A stretch of DNA of 64,000 nucleotides from assembly GCA_902780915.1 (NCBI GenBank), contig CACZHK010000015.1:62001-126000 (forward strand), read 5' to 3'. Under the pieces are notes generated by a model that saw nothing but the letters and a program-made list of their open reading frames with translations, made no database searches and was not told the DNA's origin. Positions 29,612 to 36,112 of the stretch are shown one piece after another. This stretch comes from Pseudoselenomonas ruminantium. GTDB taxonomy: Bacteria > Bacillota > Negativicutes > Selenomonadales > Selenomonadaceae. The translations under genes and the position numbers were made by a program. Positions within the stretch are counted from its first letter, which is position 1. Each line of letters opens with the position of its first letter.

Positions 29612-29686
29612 GGCGCCTTCGTCAAGTGGTTAAGACACCGCCCTCTCACGGCGGGTTCATGGGTTCGAATCCCATAGGCGTCACCA
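29612..29686 (+). tRNA. tRNA-Glu (CTC), copy 1
   Basis: 75 nt including encoded CCA. Acceptor stem GGCGCCT/AGGCGTC with a G-U at pair 2-71. The anticodon stem CCGCC/GGCGG encloses loop CTCTCAC, so the anticodon is CTC (29645-29647), reading GAG. T-arm GGGTTCGAATCCC. Overall sequence follows known bacterial tRNA-Glu. Confidence 0.97.
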
Positions 29687-29689
29687 ACT

Positions 29690-29764
29690 GGCTCCTTCGT
29701 CAAGTGGTTAAGACACCGCCCTCTCACGGCGGGTTCATGGGTTCGAATCCCATAGGAGTCACCA
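29690..29764 (+). tRNA. tRNA-Glu (CTC), copy 2
   Basis: 75 nt, 3 nt behind copy 1. It is identical in body to copy 1 except that acceptor pair 4-69 is T-A instead of G-C (GGCTCCT/AGGAGTC): both sides have changed, so pairing is kept. Confidence 0.97.
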
Positions 29765-29767
29765 ATC

Positions 29768-29842
29768 GGCGCCTTCGTCAAGTGGTTAAGACACCGCCCT
29801 CTCACGGCGGGTTCATGGGTTCGAATCCCATAGGCGTCACCA
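29768..29842 (+). tRNA. tRNA-Glu (CTC), copy 3
   Basis: 75 nt, 3 nt behind copy 2 and identical to copy 1, with the same CTC anticodon and encoded CCA. The AT-rich accessory island begins right after it. No clear terminator is seen behind it. Confidence 0.97.
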
Positions 29843-29925: not shown

Positions 29926-30249
29926 ATGAAGCTATGGAATGCTGTAGCCAAACCTTTCAAGAACATCCACAGGATTTTCCCTACCCAACAGGCCGAAATA
30001 GCGAAAATGATTGATGTATGCAAGGCAATCCCCAACATCAAGCGTATCATAATATTCGGCAGCAGCATAACCCCTCAATGCAACCCGTGGAGTGACATTG
30101 ACATTTTCTTCGATCTCAGCCAGGAAATGACCAAGCTCCCCGTGGTAAAAGGCACCGAAACTGTCTGGGACAAGTGGGATACCTTCTCCGTGGATAAGAA
30201 CCTGCTGGACGAAATTCTCAGTACGGGGGTAGTTGTTTATGAACGATAA
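29926..30249 (+). CDS. MNT-domain nucleotidyltransferase (MntA-like antitoxin)
   Basis: 107-aa minimal nucleotidyltransferase. The catalytic motif GSX10DXD is exact: Gly45-Ser46, ten residues, then Asp57-Ile58-Asp59. In known MNT-HEPN toxin-antitoxin modules this enzyme adenylylates the HEPN toxin and so neutralises it. The next gene, overlapping by 11 nt, encodes a HEPN protein, which supports that role. GGAGGG precedes the ATG. The N-terminal 20 residues are basic and lie outside the core fold. Confidence 0.85.
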   Translation: MKLWNAVAKPFKNIHRIFPTQQAEIAKMIDVCKAIPNIKRIIIFGSSITPQCNPWSDIDIFFDLSQEMTKLPVVKGTETVWDKWDTFSVDKNLLDEILSTGVVVYER

Positions 30250-30676
30250 ATCATTAACCAACGATACTCTTCTTGGCATGGCCAAGAACAACCTGACCGT
30301 TGCCAGGGAAATGTACAAACTCTACCCTGATGACAACGGCATCGTAAATCTCGTAGCCTATCATCTGCAACAGACCATTGAACTCGCTCTGAAGCATTTC
30401 TTTGAGACCCACGGCATCAAGTACGACCGCACCCACGACATCAGCGACCTCTGCTCCAAAATCCCGGACGAGCACTATGATATGTTCCGCGACATAGACA
30501 TCTACGCCTCTAAACTGACGCAGATGGAATCCAAGACCAGATACCTTAAATCCTATTCTGTAGCAGTGCGTGAAATCAAGCTAGGCTTTGACCTTGCCAA
30601 TGGCATTATAGACAAGCTCACTAAACTAGAAGAGGCAGAAGACGCCCAAAACGCCATTGAACATGAAGATTTCTAA
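30239..30676 (+). CDS. HEPN-domain protein (partner of the MNT protein)
   Basis: 145-aa helical protein of the COG2250-like HEPN class: VAYHLQQTIELALKHFFETHGIKYDRTHDISDLCSKI is the conserved core. The ATG at 30239 lies inside the end of the MNT gene and behind GGGGGT, giving tight coupling. A canonical RX4-6H ribonuclease motif is not visible; the only candidate is R-T-H in YDRTHD, so RNase activity is doubtful. After the stop the same frame stays open for 49 more codons (see 30677-30826). Confidence 0.8.
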   Translation: MNDKSLTNDTLLGMAKNNLTVAREMYKLYPDDNGIVNLVAYHLQQTIELALKHFFETHGIKYDRTHDISDLCSKIPDEHYDMFRDIDIYASKLTQMESKTRYLKSYSVAVREIKLGFDLANGIIDKLTKLEEAEDAQNAIEHEDF

Positions 30677-30826
30677 ACAAGAAAGGCGGCAACAGAGCAC
30701 AATGCGCTGTATGCTTATGTCACAGAGCTGAAGCAGGAAGTGCTGAAAATTCCATTGCAGGGCAACCTGCAGAAGTATTTCAAGAAGTATCTGACCATAC
30801 ACAAATCCAAGCAAATGTTTTCATAA
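30677..30826 (+). pseudogene. In-frame coding remnant behind the HEPN gene
   Basis: Directly after the HEPN stop TAA the same frame reads 49 further sense codons, including ALYAYVTELKQEVLKIPLQG and LQKYFKKYLTIHKSK, before TAA. It has no start codon of its own. It is either a C-terminal extension lost by a nonsense change or the tail of another deleted gene. I do not recognise the family. Confidence 0.4.
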
Positions 30827-31080
30827 AGCTCGGCTTATATCTCAAAAAGAAAAGAAAATATATAAGATTGTTCTATTGCTTTTCCTCCTGTTTGTTCGCT
30901 AGCTTTCAGGAGTGACCGTTTACGAGGGCGTGTCTTGCGAGGCACGTCCTTTGCTATATAATAAAGGTATGTTGAATTGCCTCTCCTTGAAAAGGACCAC
31001 GGATTTGGTCGTAGGCTTTTGTTATGGAAAAATTTAGTTAGAAGCTAGATTGTCCGGAAACATAGTCCCAGCTACCTTCT
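30827..31080. other. Gene-poor spacer in the island
   Basis: No intact gene. A hairpin AGGGCGTG/CACGTCCT (30925-30950, one G-T pair) may end the MNT-HEPN transcript. The rest looks like decayed sequence between two remnants. Confidence 0.4.
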
Positions 31081-31413
31081 CTAAAACCTCCTGGTATTAC
31101 TGCCTCCCAATCTATATAGGAAGGATCTACGCATCTTTTCCAGCGTATCAGGGGGGAAGCCTTTGCCAAAACGATTCGTTAAATCTTTGGAAAGCTTGAC
31201 GATTACATGCTTTCCATATTTAGTTCTTGTTCTTCCGTCCTGCTATACCTCCACAATCCAACAGCCAAGCATAAAATATGTCATGATTTGCAACTTGTCG
31301 ATTTGCTTGACTGCTGCATTACGCGAATACTCGACAAGTGAAATTGCCTTTTGAGCTAACTCGCTTATATCCCCGGCATCGGTGATTTCCTTTAATATGT
31401 TCTCATTCATCAT
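31081..31413 (-). pseudogene. DUF1016 (YhcG-type) N-terminal domain remnant
   Basis: Minus-strand frame beginning MMNENILKEITDAGD. Its body matches the DUF1016/YhcG N-terminal domain: a helical lead, YFMLGCWIVEV, then a TAG at 31243-31245, then QDGRTRTKYGKHVIVKLSKD and LTNRFGKGFPPDTLEKMRR. Intact members read I-V-E-E at the stop, so one base (GAG to TAG) explains it. The C-terminal PD-(D/E)xK nuclease domain is missing; the frame ends 21 codons after the mid-domain. A second frame stays open through the truncation point. The family is linked to restriction-modification and mobile elements. Confidence 0.7.
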
Positions 31414-31425
31414 GTTAAATCACCT

Positions 31426-31680
31426 TCACTCTGGTATCGGGATCCAGCACCTTGAAAAGCTCGCCCACATTAAAATATTAGCCTTTTGATCTCCCCAATT
31501 GAACTCGTAAGCTTCATCGCCCTCTACCACGTCTAAGGAAAGCATTTGCCGGAGCGTGTCGAAGTTGATGGCCTTTTTAAGAGTACCGTCAGCGTCAATA
31601 GTTTCCGTGATGCAGTTGGGGAAGATGGCACTGATTTTTTCTATGTTAGTCAATGTGATGTCTGGTGACTCCATGCACAT
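31426..31680 (-). pseudogene. 5' stump of a type III restriction methyltransferase gene (mod)
   Basis: 84 codons from ATG 31680. The segment SPDITLTNIEKISAIFPNCI followed by DGTLKKAINFDTLRQMLS and VVEGDEAYEFNW is the N-terminus of type III Mod proteins. After that the reading departs from the family (WGDQKANILMWASFS) and stops; the catalytic DPPY part is gone. The ATG sits 1 nt past the stop of the upstream ATPase gene, so the two formed an operon. A GTG or ATG slightly upstream inside the ATPase gene is less likely. Confidence 0.75.
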
Positions 31681-31681
31681 T

Positions 31682-33898
31682 TTATCCATTGGTAGATACA
31701 TCCGTTAATTTTTTAACATCCTGATACAGTCTCAAAAGTTCAACAATATCCATATCAAGAAGTGGTTCATACATAAATGAATTGAAATGTATATTCTCTG
31801 GAGTCATGATATTTACGGCAGATAATATTTTTATCTCCTCCTGATTCCCAATCTGAACAAAGCCATTCATCAGTTTGCGTGTTTGGTTGTCACTAGATTC
31901 AATGTAAGATAGGAACTCGTTGCTTGTACCAGAGATTTTTCCCTTATCCCAATAAAATGTACCGGAATATGCTACAATCTTATCTTTCATGAATTTTTCT
32001 GCTTTATGACGAATGCCCATTGCGAGAATAATCTTGTTTTCAAGTGCAACATCCTTTTCCGTTACATTTGCACATTCTTGGTAAAGAATATTAATAGCTT
32101 TGTCTGCTGTGTTTATATTCTGAGCAAAAGACTTTATACCTACATATTCTTGAAATATGGGAAGTAAATCAGAAAATGTGATATTGGATGTGTCGGATTT
32201 ATCATGAAGCAATGATGTGAGAAATTTAAAGTCTGAGCCTTTGCCGGAAATATCCTTATCGTTTCCGTACTCCACAAGATTTCTAACGAGTGGAACCATT
32301 GCCAATACGATTTTCTTATTAAGGTGTCCCTTCCAATACTTGAATGGTTGATTTTGATATTTTTCCTCGATAAGAATTATCCCGTGTTCACCCATTTCAG
32401 CAAATAGCCTATGTTCTCTAGGAACAGATAATCTGCTAGATACTGTACGATAAAAATCGTAATTGTGGGACAATAGGAGAAGTTTAATTTTTTCATTTTT
32501 GGAGAGTTCGTACAGATATTCTATAATCGCATATTTATTTTTGTAATCAAATGAATCTGCTATATCGTCAACTACAAGTAACACATCTTGTCCTGATTTC
32601 TTCAACTGTTCTAGGTCGAAAATAATATTTAACAGATATAGTGCCCTTTTCTCTCCCTGACTTAGAGTATCTAATTCGTCTAGTTGAGCTCTATTAACTC
32701 GTACTTCAGAATTGTTTTTTGTGAATTCAAATTCCACTTGTGGAATGCTTTCACCAATTATGGCACTTTTAAGATTTGCGACACACATAGTAAACGGAAC
32801 AGAAAAACGCTCATTGAAAATATCCAAAGCCTTTTTCCATGGGGTATCATCCATTGGCATCTTATCTATAGCAGAAGATAACCACTTATACTTATTCAAC
32901 ATATCGTCAAACAAAAGTTTATTTACGCTTATATAAGAAATCCATAGCGTCTTTTTCAGTTCATGAAGTTTATCCTTCATCAAATAAGGAGCAATTGATG
33001 GATTTGTTTCAATGACATCCTTGAGAACCATTCCTTTTGCGTCTGTAAGCATATCCTCGATATTTTTTAACTCTGGTAATTGTTTTACTGCTGTTTCTAT
33101 CGCTGTAATTCGTTCTTCCAGCTCTTTTTCATTAGTAGCACCTTCTGTTCCGGTTAAATATAGTGCATTATCTTTTACAAAGAAAGAGTATTTTGAAAGA
33201 GATTTTTTTATATCTTTTAGTTTAGGAAGTGTGAAACTTCCTTTTTCAAGGAATCCAAACGATTCATAAACACGGTCAGTTTCTTTGATGAAACTTTGAA
33301 TGCCATTTTGAAATTTTTGTGACTCAATTTTTTTAATAACTGACGCATCAAAGATTGCTGCATATTGTACATTAGGAAACAATATGGTGGAAGTTTCTTG
33401 AGATAACTGTTCTGCATTGACCAGTATACTATCTTCTGAATACCCAAAATCCCTAATCAGTGTTTCTTCAAGCTCATAGATAGCTTTTCCACCACTTGTC
33501 TTTTTTATCTTTACACCCGATGAAGCTTCAATTGCTTTTAAGAAATCTATCCTGGCTTTAAGTGCCTCCTTCAGCTTCATCTTAACATCAGAGTTCACCA
33601 AGAGCGAAGATATATCAGATTCATATGAAGTATCCAATGACTTTATCACGAACAAATTTGAATTTGATATATTTTTGCCATCAACTTTTACTTGAGCGAT
33701 ACCAGGTTCTTGAAAAATTATATCTCCAATTTCTTTGTCTTTCTTTCGCTGAATTTTTTCAAAAGTTTTTGCAAGTGACGTTTTCATTAGTCCATTTCTT
33801 GCGTATATAGAGTACACATTGTCATTAGTAAAATCAAATGCGTAGTTTAAGGATTCAATCCCAAAACAGTTTTTCAGTTCGACACTAACATTTTTCAA
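31682..33898 (-). CDS. SMC/RecF-like ATPase with divergent P-loop, candidate defence protein
   Basis: 738-aa ATPase of the AAA_13-like class. The P-loop is divergent: SIYARNGLMKTSLAKTF has Lys39-Thr40 but neither flanking glycine of GxxxxGK(T/S). The ABC-type signature LSQGEKRALYLL (about 412-423), Walker B VLLVVDDIADSFD (Asp444-Asp445) and a switch histidine in LLLSHNYDF are intact, with helical insertions between (100-380). The C-terminal 250 residues have no motif I know. The start is TTG, 10 nt behind AAGGAG. It heads an operon with a type III mod stump, which suggests phage defence. Confidence 0.8.
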   Translation of the reverse strand: MKNVSVELKNCFGIESLNYAFDFTNDNVYSIYARNGLMKTSLAKTFEKIQRKKDKEIGDIIFQEPGIAQVKVDGKNISNSNLFVIKSLDTSYESDISSLLVNSDVKMKLKEALKARIDFLKAIEASSGVKIKKTSGGKAIYELEETLIRDFGYSEDSILVNAEQLSQETSTILFPNVQYAAIFDASVIKKIESQKFQNGIQSFIKETDRVYESFGFLEKGSFTLPKLKDIKKSLSKYSFFVKDNALYLTGTEGATNEKELEERITAIETAVKQLPELKNIEDMLTDAKGMVLKDVIETNPSIAPYLMKDKLHELKKTLWISYISVNKLLFDDMLNKYKWLSSAIDKMPMDDTPWKKALDIFNERFSVPFTMCVANLKSAIIGESIPQVEFEFTKNNSEVRVNRAQLDELDTLSQGEKRALYLLNIIFDLEQLKKSGQDVLLVVDDIADSFDYKNKYAIIEYLYELSKNEKIKLLLLSHNYDFYRTVSSRLSVPREHRLFAEMGEHGIILIEEKYQNQPFKYWKGHLNKKIVLAMVPLVRNLVEYGNDKDISGKGSDFKFLTSLLHDKSDTSNITFSDLLPIFQEYVGIKSFAQNINTADKAINILYQECANVTEKDVALENKIILAMGIRHKAEKFMKDKIVAYSGTFYWDKGKISGTSNEFLSYIESSDNQTRKLMNGFVQIGNQEEIKILSAVNIMTPENIHFNSFMYEPLLDMDIVELLRLYQDVKKLTDVSTNG

Positions 33899-33960
33899 TG
33901 ATTTACAGCTCCTTAATCTTTAACTCTTAACGATTATTGTACATATTAAGCATGAAAGGT

Positions 33961-34290
33961 TTATGTAAATATTAAGCCATAAATTAGCATTACGCCGATA
34001 AATGCAATACCAGACAAAATCGAATAATCCTCTGTTGTAATATCACCATCCTTAATTGATTCTTGTGCAGAATTATCTAAACTCTGTTTAGGATTATTTG
34101 AGAAACTATAGTCATTCATTATCGAAATATTTTCCTTTTCCATTTTGCCAGTATTCTTTTTTAGGTACTCGCTATCATGCAACGCTGTGGTATTAATAAT
34201 TGTTTTCTCTAGTTTTATTGCTTTTGCACCACAGTATATACAGAAATCAACATCATTAGAAAGTTTTTTACCACATTTGTGACAATACAT
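33961..34290 (-). CDS. Zinc-ribbon protein with C-terminal membrane segment
   Basis: 109 aa. An N-terminal zinc ribbon (YCHKCGKK...FCIYCGAK, two CxxC knuckles), a polar linker of about 60 residues, and one hydrophobic segment at the C-terminus (ILSGIAFIGVMLIYGLIF). The ATG at 34290 is behind GGTGG. It is the last of three linked small genes on the minus strand. Function unknown. Confidence 0.75.
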   Translation of the reverse strand: MYCHKCGKKLSNDVDFCIYCGAKAIKLEKTIINTTALHDSEYLKKNTGKMEKENISIMNDYSFSNNPKQSLDNSAQESIKDGDITTEDYSILSGIAFIGVMLIYGLIFT

Positions 34291-34305
34291 AATAACCACC
34301 TTCTT

Positions 34306-34506
34306 TTATAATCCCATAGAGCTTTTAACAGATTCTCTAATAGCTTGCTGGGCTATTGCCTTTATGAGCATAGATATACATAAGAATACAAACATTAAAA
34401 TGACAAAAGTAAACATTTTTCCATACTTTTTTTGTTTATAACTAGTCGATATTGCTTTACAATAGTATGCAAATCCTGTTACAAATATAATCCAGAAAAC
34501 CAACAT
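34306..34506 (-). CDS. Small protein with two membrane segments
   Basis: 66 aa: a hydrophobic helix (about 2-17), a short basic loop (TSYKQKKYGK), a second helix (about 31-50) and a polar tail. AAGGTGAT precedes the ATG. It lies between two zinc-ribbon membrane proteins and probably shares their transcript. No family recognised. Confidence 0.65.
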   Translation of the reverse strand: MLVFWIIFVTGFAYYCKAISTSYKQKKYGKMFTFVILMFVFLCISMLIKAIAQQAIRESVKSSMGL

Positions 34507-34552
34507 TAAGTATCACCTTCTGCTTTTGTTCAATAAGCATTGCAAGTAATCA

Positions 34553-35479
34553 TTAGCCAATCCAAAGAGTGTATAGCACCCCAGCTGCCCAATAATAATT
34601 AGAGATTCTAGCAGGCTTGTCGTTATATGGACATATTTCAGTTATAAAATAAGCGTCATTTTTATTTATTATCAAGTATGTATAAACAGTTTGACGGTCA
34701 TACTTATCTGTCTGTTGTGTCGATAATGTTACATAATATTCTATTTTATTGTATCTAAAAGCTTCAGAATTTTTTATATGTACTCTTGCTTGTCTCCTTT
34801 CTGCTAAATCTTTAATATACTTAGACATTGCTTCTTGAACTTGTTCTTCGTCTTTTACTGGGATATCACTTAATTTCTGATATCCTTTTATAATATCGTT
34901 TTTTGTAAGAACTTCTATTACAAGTCTATGTTCACCATCAGATGAATAATCGCAAAACTCTGCGATGTTATCGTTCTGTTGTGTAGCCTTTAAATCTGTC
35001 AAAAGCTTAAAAGCTATATCTTTAAAATAAATTACTCTTGTATCAAGAATATCTATACCCTCTTTGTCAAAATACATTGAAGTAAATCCAATGTCATCAG
35101 AAAAGATTGTCTTATCGTTCGCAAGTTGCTCTTGCCACTCTATATATTGTTGATGTGCTACTTCTTCTTTATGCTTCTGATAAGCCTGGTTAACAAAAAC
35201 TCCTACAACAAGTATAAATATTATACCTAAAATACACGCTATAATTTTTTTGGGAAGTAATTCATTTTTTATTATAAATTGTGGCCATAAATTCTTAGAA
35301 GATTGTGGTTGAACTTTAGGTGAGCCACACTTTTGACAGAATAACGCTTCCGCACTGTTTTTTGTATTGCACTTTGTACAATTCCAACCATCGATAACTA
35401 ATTTTTCTCCGCACTTTGGACAAAAAATACTTTCATCATTATCTAAATGGATATTGCATTTTTTACAAAACTTTGACAT
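34553..35479 (-). CDS. Double zinc-ribbon membrane protein
   Basis: 308 aa. Two zinc ribbons in tandem (FCKKCNIHL...FCPKCGEK and WNCTKCNTK...FCQKCGSP), a linker, one membrane segment (KIIACILGIIFILVVGVFVNQ, about 78-98) and a C-terminal domain of about 200 residues, outside the cytoplasm if the ribbons are inside. The C-terminal domain is mixed alpha/beta with no recognised motif. Zinc-ribbon-TM-domain architecture is common for sensors and scaffolds in Firmicutes. It leads a three-gene group with the two genes to its left. Confidence 0.75.
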   Translation of the reverse strand: MSKFCKKCNIHLDNDESIFCPKCGEKLVIDGWNCTKCNTKNSAEALFCQKCGSPKVQPQSSKNLWPQFIIKNELLPKKIIACILGIIFILVVGVFVNQAYQKHKEEVAHQQYIEWQEQLANDKTIFSDDIGFTSMYFDKEGIDILDTRVIYFKDIAFKLLTDLKATQQNDNIAEFCDYSSDGEHRLVIEVLTKNDIIKGYQKLSDIPVKDEEQVQEAMSKYIKDLAERRQARVHIKNSEAFRYNKIEYYVTLSTQQTDKYDRQTVYTYLIINKNDAYFITEICPYNDKPARISNYYWAAGVLYTLWIG

Positions 35480-35641
35480 GCTCTCAACCCCATTTTTTAG
35501 CTATGTATTAATAATTATTCTATTTATATTATACCTTCTTAAAAATAGACACTACTGTAAGATAAAATTTTAATATTCTATCCTAATAATACCCGAATAT
35601 TTCCCAGATTCAAAAGCAATGTTAACATAATTTTTTGTTAA

Positions 35642-35814
35642 TTATTTTGGAAAACCAACAATATAGAAAATAGCTGTAATGCAGGAGGCAGTAATATATC
35701 CCCATCCAACCTCCCCGCCTCAAATAAGCTCAACACCTTAGCCGAGGCCTCTGCAAACGACTCCTAGTCTAAGAGAACATCAAGAATTATGTTTGTGTCA
35801 CACATGACTTTCAT
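35642..35814 (-). pseudogene. Broken PIN-domain toxin gene
   Basis: The frame starts at ATG 35814 inside the antitoxin gene and reads MKVMCDTNIILDVLLD, the N-terminus of a VapC-like PIN nuclease with its first catalytic aspartate, then TAG (35764-35766). It continues ESFAEASAKVLSLFEAG and then shifts frame: TASCITAIFYIVGF is found in another frame before a stop at 35642. The remaining two-thirds of the domain is absent. A nonsense codon, a frameshift and a truncation together make it inactive. Confidence 0.75.
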
Positions 35815-36025
35815 ATCTTCCTAGACACTCCTCTCTTATAGACCGCGCAGTTATCCCTGACGGCGCATCCTTCAAAAGACCTCTAAGAGAATCCACGACG
35901 CTTTCCCTTGGCTGTGTCATCTGGGCAACGGTCTTCCCATTTGCCGTTATGAAAATATCTTCCTGACCGACCATGGCAAGATACTTATCCATGTTTGCCT
36001 GAAAGTCCACTGTTGTAACGTACAT
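35798..36025 (-). CDS. Phd/YefM-family antitoxin
   Basis: 75-aa antitoxin of the prevent-host-death class: MYVTTVDFQANMDKYLAMVGQEDIFITANGKTVAQM is the DNA-binding N-terminal fold, and the acidic-basic C-terminal tail would wrap the toxin. GGAGGGAG precedes the ATG. Its stop overlaps the start of a PIN toxin gene by 17 nt, the usual antitoxin-first layout, but the toxin is broken. The antitoxin itself looks intact, so it is an orphan now. Confidence 0.85.
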   Translation of the reverse strand: MYVTTVDFQANMDKYLAMVGQEDIFITANGKTVAQMTQPRESVVDSLRGLLKDAPSGITARSIREECLGRYESHV

Positions 36026-36112
36026 AGTGCTCCCTCCTCATACAACCATACCCTTCTTTGTCTTTATTTTATGACTTTAATCTTCGGAAGACAACCCTTT
36101 ATTCCCATATGT

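Follow-up and report, generated by a model that had tools for sequence, protein, structure and literature searches.

What does a 738-residue SMC-like ATPase do when the type III methyltransferase gene beside it has been destroyed? The question is raised by a 64,000-nucleotide stretch of Pseudoselenomonas ruminantium DNA (the window), in which a sequence-only reading had picked out this ATPase as its best candidate for a poorly described defence component. The description holds: the protein belongs to the PADLOC phage-defence candidate family PDC-S46 (PDLC05023), and a literature search for this name found no paper on the family. Other PDC genes appear in the literature as untested candidates, and two others, PDC-S04 and PDC-M63AB, have been assayed and gave no defence. 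The gene and its ATPase motifs are listed here.

31682 to 33898, minus strand: PDC-S46 ABC-type ATPase, 738 aa, TTG start (PADLOC PDC-S46 E value 1.5e-204; 28-sequence alignment)
33909 to 33914, minus strand: Shine-Dalgarno sequence AAGGAG, 10 nt ahead of the TTG start
33776 to 33802, minus strand: Walker A/P-loop ARNGLMKTS, residues 33-41 (family form [AS]xNGx[ML]K[TS]S)
32651 to 32665, minus strand: ABC signature LSQGE, residues 412-416 (S413, G415 and E416 invariant in 28)
32546 to 32584, minus strand: Walker B and D-loop LLVVDDIADSFD, about residues 439-451
32465 to 32467, minus strand: switch histidine H478 (28/28)

Residues 1-731 of the protein align with positions 1-718 of the 719-position PADLOC model; the candidate family thus has the length of the window protein, and the window copy differs by the relic of a type III restriction-modification (R-M) system at its side. 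All 18 members of our first alignment also matched PDC-S46, and relatives align from residue 1 of the window protein. Pfam and NCBIfam gave weak SMC/RecF/ABC matches at most. The ABC signature, Walker B, switch histidine and unusual P-loop were all found as first read. The P-loop (A33-R-N-G-L-M-K39-T-S41, with K39 as the Walker A lysine) is not a chance or degenerate copy, a possibility that we rejected on finding the same form throughout the family, with no exception among the 28 aligned sequences. Members share this P-loop together with a C-terminal ENIHxNSFMYEP block, and the window protein has both. The Walker B/D-loop VVDDIADSFD is intact, with Asp replacing the catalytic Glu, as it does in Pfam AAA_13 proteins. 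Altogether 50 of the 51 residues that are invariant across 27 relatives are present in the window protein.

Relatives share 29-56% identity with the window protein and come from Firmicutes, Proteobacteria, Bacteroidota, Spirochaetota, Actinomycetota and prophage contigs. The nearest is from Ruminococcus albus, with an ATPase 56% identical to that of the window; it was also the one match when contigs were searched with the window protein as a single sequence. Few full-length relatives turned up in 380 genomes from the class and 398 from the phylum, which marks the gene as rare and patchily distributed. A Providencia PDC-S46 gene matched 45 of 5426 E. coli genomes at the DNA level, full length in 6 only and partial in the other 39 of the 45; one cut copy that was inspected carried IS1 at the break. 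The PDC-S46 copy of another genome, G355, is broken or cut short.

Downstream of the ATPase lie the remains of its former partner and a further damaged gene.

31474 to 31689, minus strand: 5' end of mod, the type III methyltransferase gene, surviving as codons 1-72 (72% identity with R. albus Mod; PADLOC MTase_III 9.3e-14)
31415 to 31471, minus strand: 3' end of mod, out of frame with the 5' part and reduced to the final 18 codons NVGELFKVLDPDTRVKVI with the stop, marking a deletion scar
31153 to 31413, minus strand: fragment of a DUF1016_N gene, interrupted by a TAG (Pfam PF17761, 2.3e-13 on read-through)

The ATG at 31689 is the start of mod supported by homology, so that mod overlaps the ATPase stop codon (31684-31682) by 8 nt in ATGGATAA, in place of the 1-nt gap reported earlier. 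The same reading called mod truncated; it is indeed broken, more exactly by an internal out-of-frame deletion that has kept both ends. The last 18 codons (31471-31418), 78% identical to R. albus Mod, directly abut codons 1-72 in another frame, from which it follows that the middle of the gene was lost in one event. The 90 codons of the scar are free of further lesions, and their identity to R. albus Mod (72-78%) exceeds the 56% of the ATPase itself; the deletion therefore looks recent.

That the ATPase once belonged to a type III operon, as had been proposed, is borne out by this scar and by R. albus, where the same order survives in an operon of SNF2-type helicase, DUF4391, PDC-S46, Mod, Mrr-like nuclease and Res. 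The R. albus mod (L002, 12228-14578, plus strand) is itself split over two overlapping frames, by a sequencing error, phase variation or a real frameshift. Nothing similar to the R. albus-type helicase, DUF4391 or Res was found elsewhere in the window; with Mod internally deleted and Res absent from the window, the ATPase is the sole part still whole. Judged by its sequence, it is an orphaned PDC-S46 member whose cognate type III system was lost through the internal mod deletion. A literature search on DUF4391 with type III systems returned nothing useful. Four relatives from the class (L107, L109-L111) carry a type III operon of the same layout without PDC-S46, composed of a protein of about 1075 aa, one of about 220 aa, Mod and Res. 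In a further locus (L112), two other genes lie between a protein of about 216 aa and Mod, and this position in the operon may thus be a cargo slot.

The scar and the ATPase lie within a segment that differs from its surroundings.

30745 to 35656, no strand: low-GC insert (30-42% GC versus 52-57% in the flanks), approximate limits of the variable segment, missing from genus relatives

The site is a variable spot: in one genus relative (G265) the sequence passes almost straight from the HEPN gene to the region at 36108, another (G264) has an antitoxin/PIN pair there, and a third (G263) has other genes. No attachment repeats were found flanking the insert. Three near-identical tandem tRNA-Glu (CTC) genes (29612-29842, plus strand) stand right after gltX and beside the insert, an arrangement also present in genus relatives. 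They are followed by an MNT nucleotidyltransferase gene (29926-30249, plus strand; Polbeta, 1.9e-7) and a HEPN gene (30233-30676, plus strand; PF05168, 3.4e-12), which likely form a toxin-antitoxin pair; this stretch is complete in G263 and G265, and in G264 only its first part, to about 30287, is present. On the far side, an orphan antitoxin-like gene (35657-36025, minus strand) has a counterpart in G264 with a PIN toxin gene behind it; the window has the first part only of that toxin gene, and homology to G264 stops at about 35657. Upstream of the ATPase the insert also encodes two zinc-ribbon proteins (33961-34299 and 34553-35479, minus strand), and a G263 protein from the same variable spot begins with a similar zinc ribbon.

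Linkage to restriction genes recurs among relatives. On a viral contig (L048) the order is helicase, DUF4391, Mod, Res and then PDC-S46, and on a Providencia plasmid (L034) a type III Res fragment lies immediately upstream of PDC-S46. Type I genes accompany it in the orders HsdM, HsdS, DUF3644, HsdR, PDC-S46 (L072) and HsdM, HsdM, HsdS, PDC-S46, HsdR (L052), or as HsdM and HsdS 4 kb upstream (L046). Other neighbours include LlaJI genes (L069), McrBC (L067), a methyl-directed nuclease (L039), Avs2 (L070), a Mokosh gene (L037), Shango SngB/SngC (L130 by profile, L133 by the same annotation) and, in E. coli, a BREX/Hma-like methylase and helicase (L113). R-M or other defence genes were close by in roughly half of about 37 loci, a raw hand count of loci as the searches returned them, without a background rate for comparison; in about half of the relatives no R-M or known defence gene was near. 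Relatives are therefore not consistently outside defence loci, the outcome that would have spoken against a defence role. On a tree of PDC-S46 the contexts are scattered, with type III linkage in three separate branches and type I in three.

A whole-protein model (pLDDT 81.9, pTM 0.60) has an SMC/Rad50/PtuA-like head, and its best structural matches are the heads of SMC, Rad50 and RecN. A PDB sequence search with the single window protein gave nothing, and the sole PDB match of the family profile, a nucleoporin coiled coil at E 0.13, was discarded. In profile-profile comparison by hhalign with Pfam AAA_13 proteins, labelled PDC-S06 by PADLOC and mostly with secondary PrrC matches, PDC-S46 scored Prob 97.8 and E 1.2e-12. 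By this comparison the head is distantly homologous to the PrrC/RloC-like family AAA_13. The alignment reaches past the head, where R539xxxE543 falls, unforced, on the RloC-type R-x3-E. The Pfam AAA_13 model itself did not match the window protein and matched 1 of 18 relatives, at 1.5e-7; a zinc-hook CxxC, invariant in the AAA_13 set, occurs nowhere in the window protein.

Beyond the head, the C-terminal domain was modelled separately.

31685 to 32362, minus strand: C-terminal helical domain, residues 513-738, of which 600-738 resemble HEPN folds (model pLDDT 85.6, pTM 0.85)
32204 to 32284, minus strand: first conserved set, R539-N-x2-E543 ... H565 (alignment and profile alignment)
31997 to 32011, minus strand: R630-x3-E634, a candidate catalytic pair on the long helix (619-643) within the HEPN-like region (each 28/28)
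31766 to 31789, minus strand: H704-x-N706 ... E711, invariant C-terminal loop, H704 being the candidate catalytic His (28/28)

The top three VIA-align matches of this domain were HEPN proteins, namely 2q00 (Z 6.4), 2jpu (Z 6.3) and the HepT toxin 6m6u (Z 5.7), values that chance alone can produce between helical domains; 2q00 and 2jpu are one PaREP1 HEPN protein. AbiA and Csm6 were among the first eight, and the HEPN alignments ran over residues 600-738. 2q00 is classed as HEPN (PMC3710099). Foldseek of the domain against PDB and a viral library found nothing below E 0.35, and when the C-domain profile was compared by itself with those of RloC C-domains no match was significant (E 0.03-0.5). 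Among the HEPN RNase folds (HepT, PaREP1, AbiA, Csm6) that match predicted residues 600-738 best, the likeness is tempered by modest Z scores and by the canonical Rx4-6H motif, which is absent from the 28-sequence alignment.

The only conserved histidines of the family are 478, 565 and 704, and the only conserved arginines 364, 484, 539 and 630. R539, H565, R630, E634 and H704 are each present in 28 of 28 sequences and E543 in 27; the switch histidine H478 is the only near-invariant His besides H565 and H704. H704 comes after the next conserved helix following R630-x3-E634, at a spacing from E634 that is x51-55 for most of the family and x69-72 for the clade of the window protein. Two R-x3-E/H sets thus compete, and the profile alignment picks R539/E543/H565, which lies outside the HEPN-like part. 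The model and the conserved residues suggest a HEPN-like fold with candidate catalytic residues.

PrrC is an anticodon nuclease linked to type Ic R-M systems. One PDC-S46 relative (L052) occupies the PrrC position between hsdS and hsdR, and the R-x3-E...H pattern is common to both; PDC-S46, however, is about twice as long, has a spacing of E-x51-72-H against x31 in PrrC, also stands beside type II, III, IV, BREX-like and Shango genes, and has no direct PADLOC PrrC match. Like RloC and PDC-S06 (AAA_13) it has an ABC head with a DD Walker B and an R-x3-E...H pattern in the C-domain, and it too mostly stands alone and at times lies beside R-M relics. It differs from them in lacking the zinc hook and the usual P-loop glycines, and in a longer C-domain with two R-x3-E/H sets. 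The RloC triad is R-x3-E-x36-52-H, each residue being required for tRNA cleavage activity, and that of PrrC is Arg320-Glu324-His356 (PMC2610378). A close parallel to the window locus is Geobacillus (G. kaustophilus) RloC, which lies beside an hsdR relic (PMC2610378). From sequence, predicted fold and recurrent neighbours, PDC-S46 looks like a distant cousin of these RNA-cutting back-up weapons. It is best regarded as a variant on the PrrC/RloC theme, short of proven membership, because the Pfam AAA_13 model, the zinc-hook CxxC and the HEPN Rx4-6H motif all gave negative results. Nor is the family covered by any characterised system, the other outcome that would have spoken against the earlier reading.

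The reading that we favour, with confidence evenly balanced for and against, is that PDC-S46 is an R-M-coupled single-chain ABC-HEPN RNase, distantly related to PrrC/RloC and orphaned here after the mod deletion. The data show the family assignment, the conservation, the operon relic, the recurring R-M linkage and the distant homology of the head, and models predict the fold and residues of the C-domain; its RNase activity, tRNA target, trigger and abortive outcome are what we infer from these comparisons. The two ABC heads would dimerise upon ATP, and the helical insert and head would monitor the condition of DNA or of a partner defence system that processes DNA; example triggers are DNA ends and a restriction enzyme that an anti-restriction protein of a phage has blocked. 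ATP hydrolysis or release would free the C-terminal domain, which would then cut RNA, most likely tRNA, via R630, E634 and H704, possibly also R539, E543 and H565, so that translation stops and the infection is aborted. Such a protein would usually serve R-M operons as a plug-in back-up module. The R. albus relative is embedded in a type III operon with helicase and DUF4391, to whose Mod the window scar is 72% identical. A broader form of the proposal is a tentative possibility: PDC-S46 may be a general plug-in back-up ABC-HEPN RNase whose ATPase works without the customary P-loop glycines and which has docked independently and repeatedly onto type I-IV restriction, BREX/Hma-like, Shango and Avs operons and guards against phage anti-defence proteins.

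Rather unlikely, in our estimate, is that the protein lacks a nuclease and is an accessory SMC/Rad50-like ATPase that handles DNA: it would scan phage DNA or hold it, in aid of the restriction or helicase machinery next to it, and its C-domain would be a protein- or DNA-binding platform. The SMC, Rad50 and RecN heads that top the whole-protein matches fit such an accessory, as does the missing HEPN motif, and where PDC-S46 shares an operon with helicase, methylase and nuclease genes such a role would be natural. Against it, the invariant polar set R/E/H/N/E of the C-domain looks like an active site, and PDC-S46 often occurs alone, without R-M genes, so it probably carries its own effector.

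Quite unlikely, and a matter of this genome only, is that the ATPase is a decaying passenger, a functionless and partnerless remnant of a recently broken operon whose intact frame reflects little elapsed time. The undamaged mod scar speaks for this, as do the loss of helicase, DUF4391 and Res from the window, the broken DUF1016 gene and the damage to other copies (G355 and the partial E. coli genes, one with IS1 at its break). The sequence-only reading had taken an intact ATPase beside a destroyed methylase as a hint of a function of its own; with a deletion that looks recent, the intact frame is weak evidence of retention for its own sake. An independent function is better supported by the many relatives with no methylase nearby, and these, which seem to stand alone, count against the passenger, together with the good ribosome-binding site and the 50 of 51 invariant residues retained. 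Very improbable is an ATPase akin to Septu/PtuA or OLD whose partner, a separate nuclease or toxin, would be recruited from a gene at another place: the head aligns with PtuA of retrons Ec83 and Ec78 at Z 14-15, a match that is unspecific since many SMC heads reach comparable Z, no consistent PtuB/HNH or TOPRIM partner stands beside relatives, and no HNH gene adjoins the ATPase in the window.

If the RNase reading is true, an unexplained candidate family would gain a mechanism testable at R630, E634, H704 and K39, the state of the partner restriction system would be the likely class of trigger, and the family would be placed next to PrrC and RloC. It would also pose the biochemical question of how an ABC ATPase works with Met in place of the glycine before the Walker A lysine, and restriction back-up by RNA cutting would extend to many more types of system.
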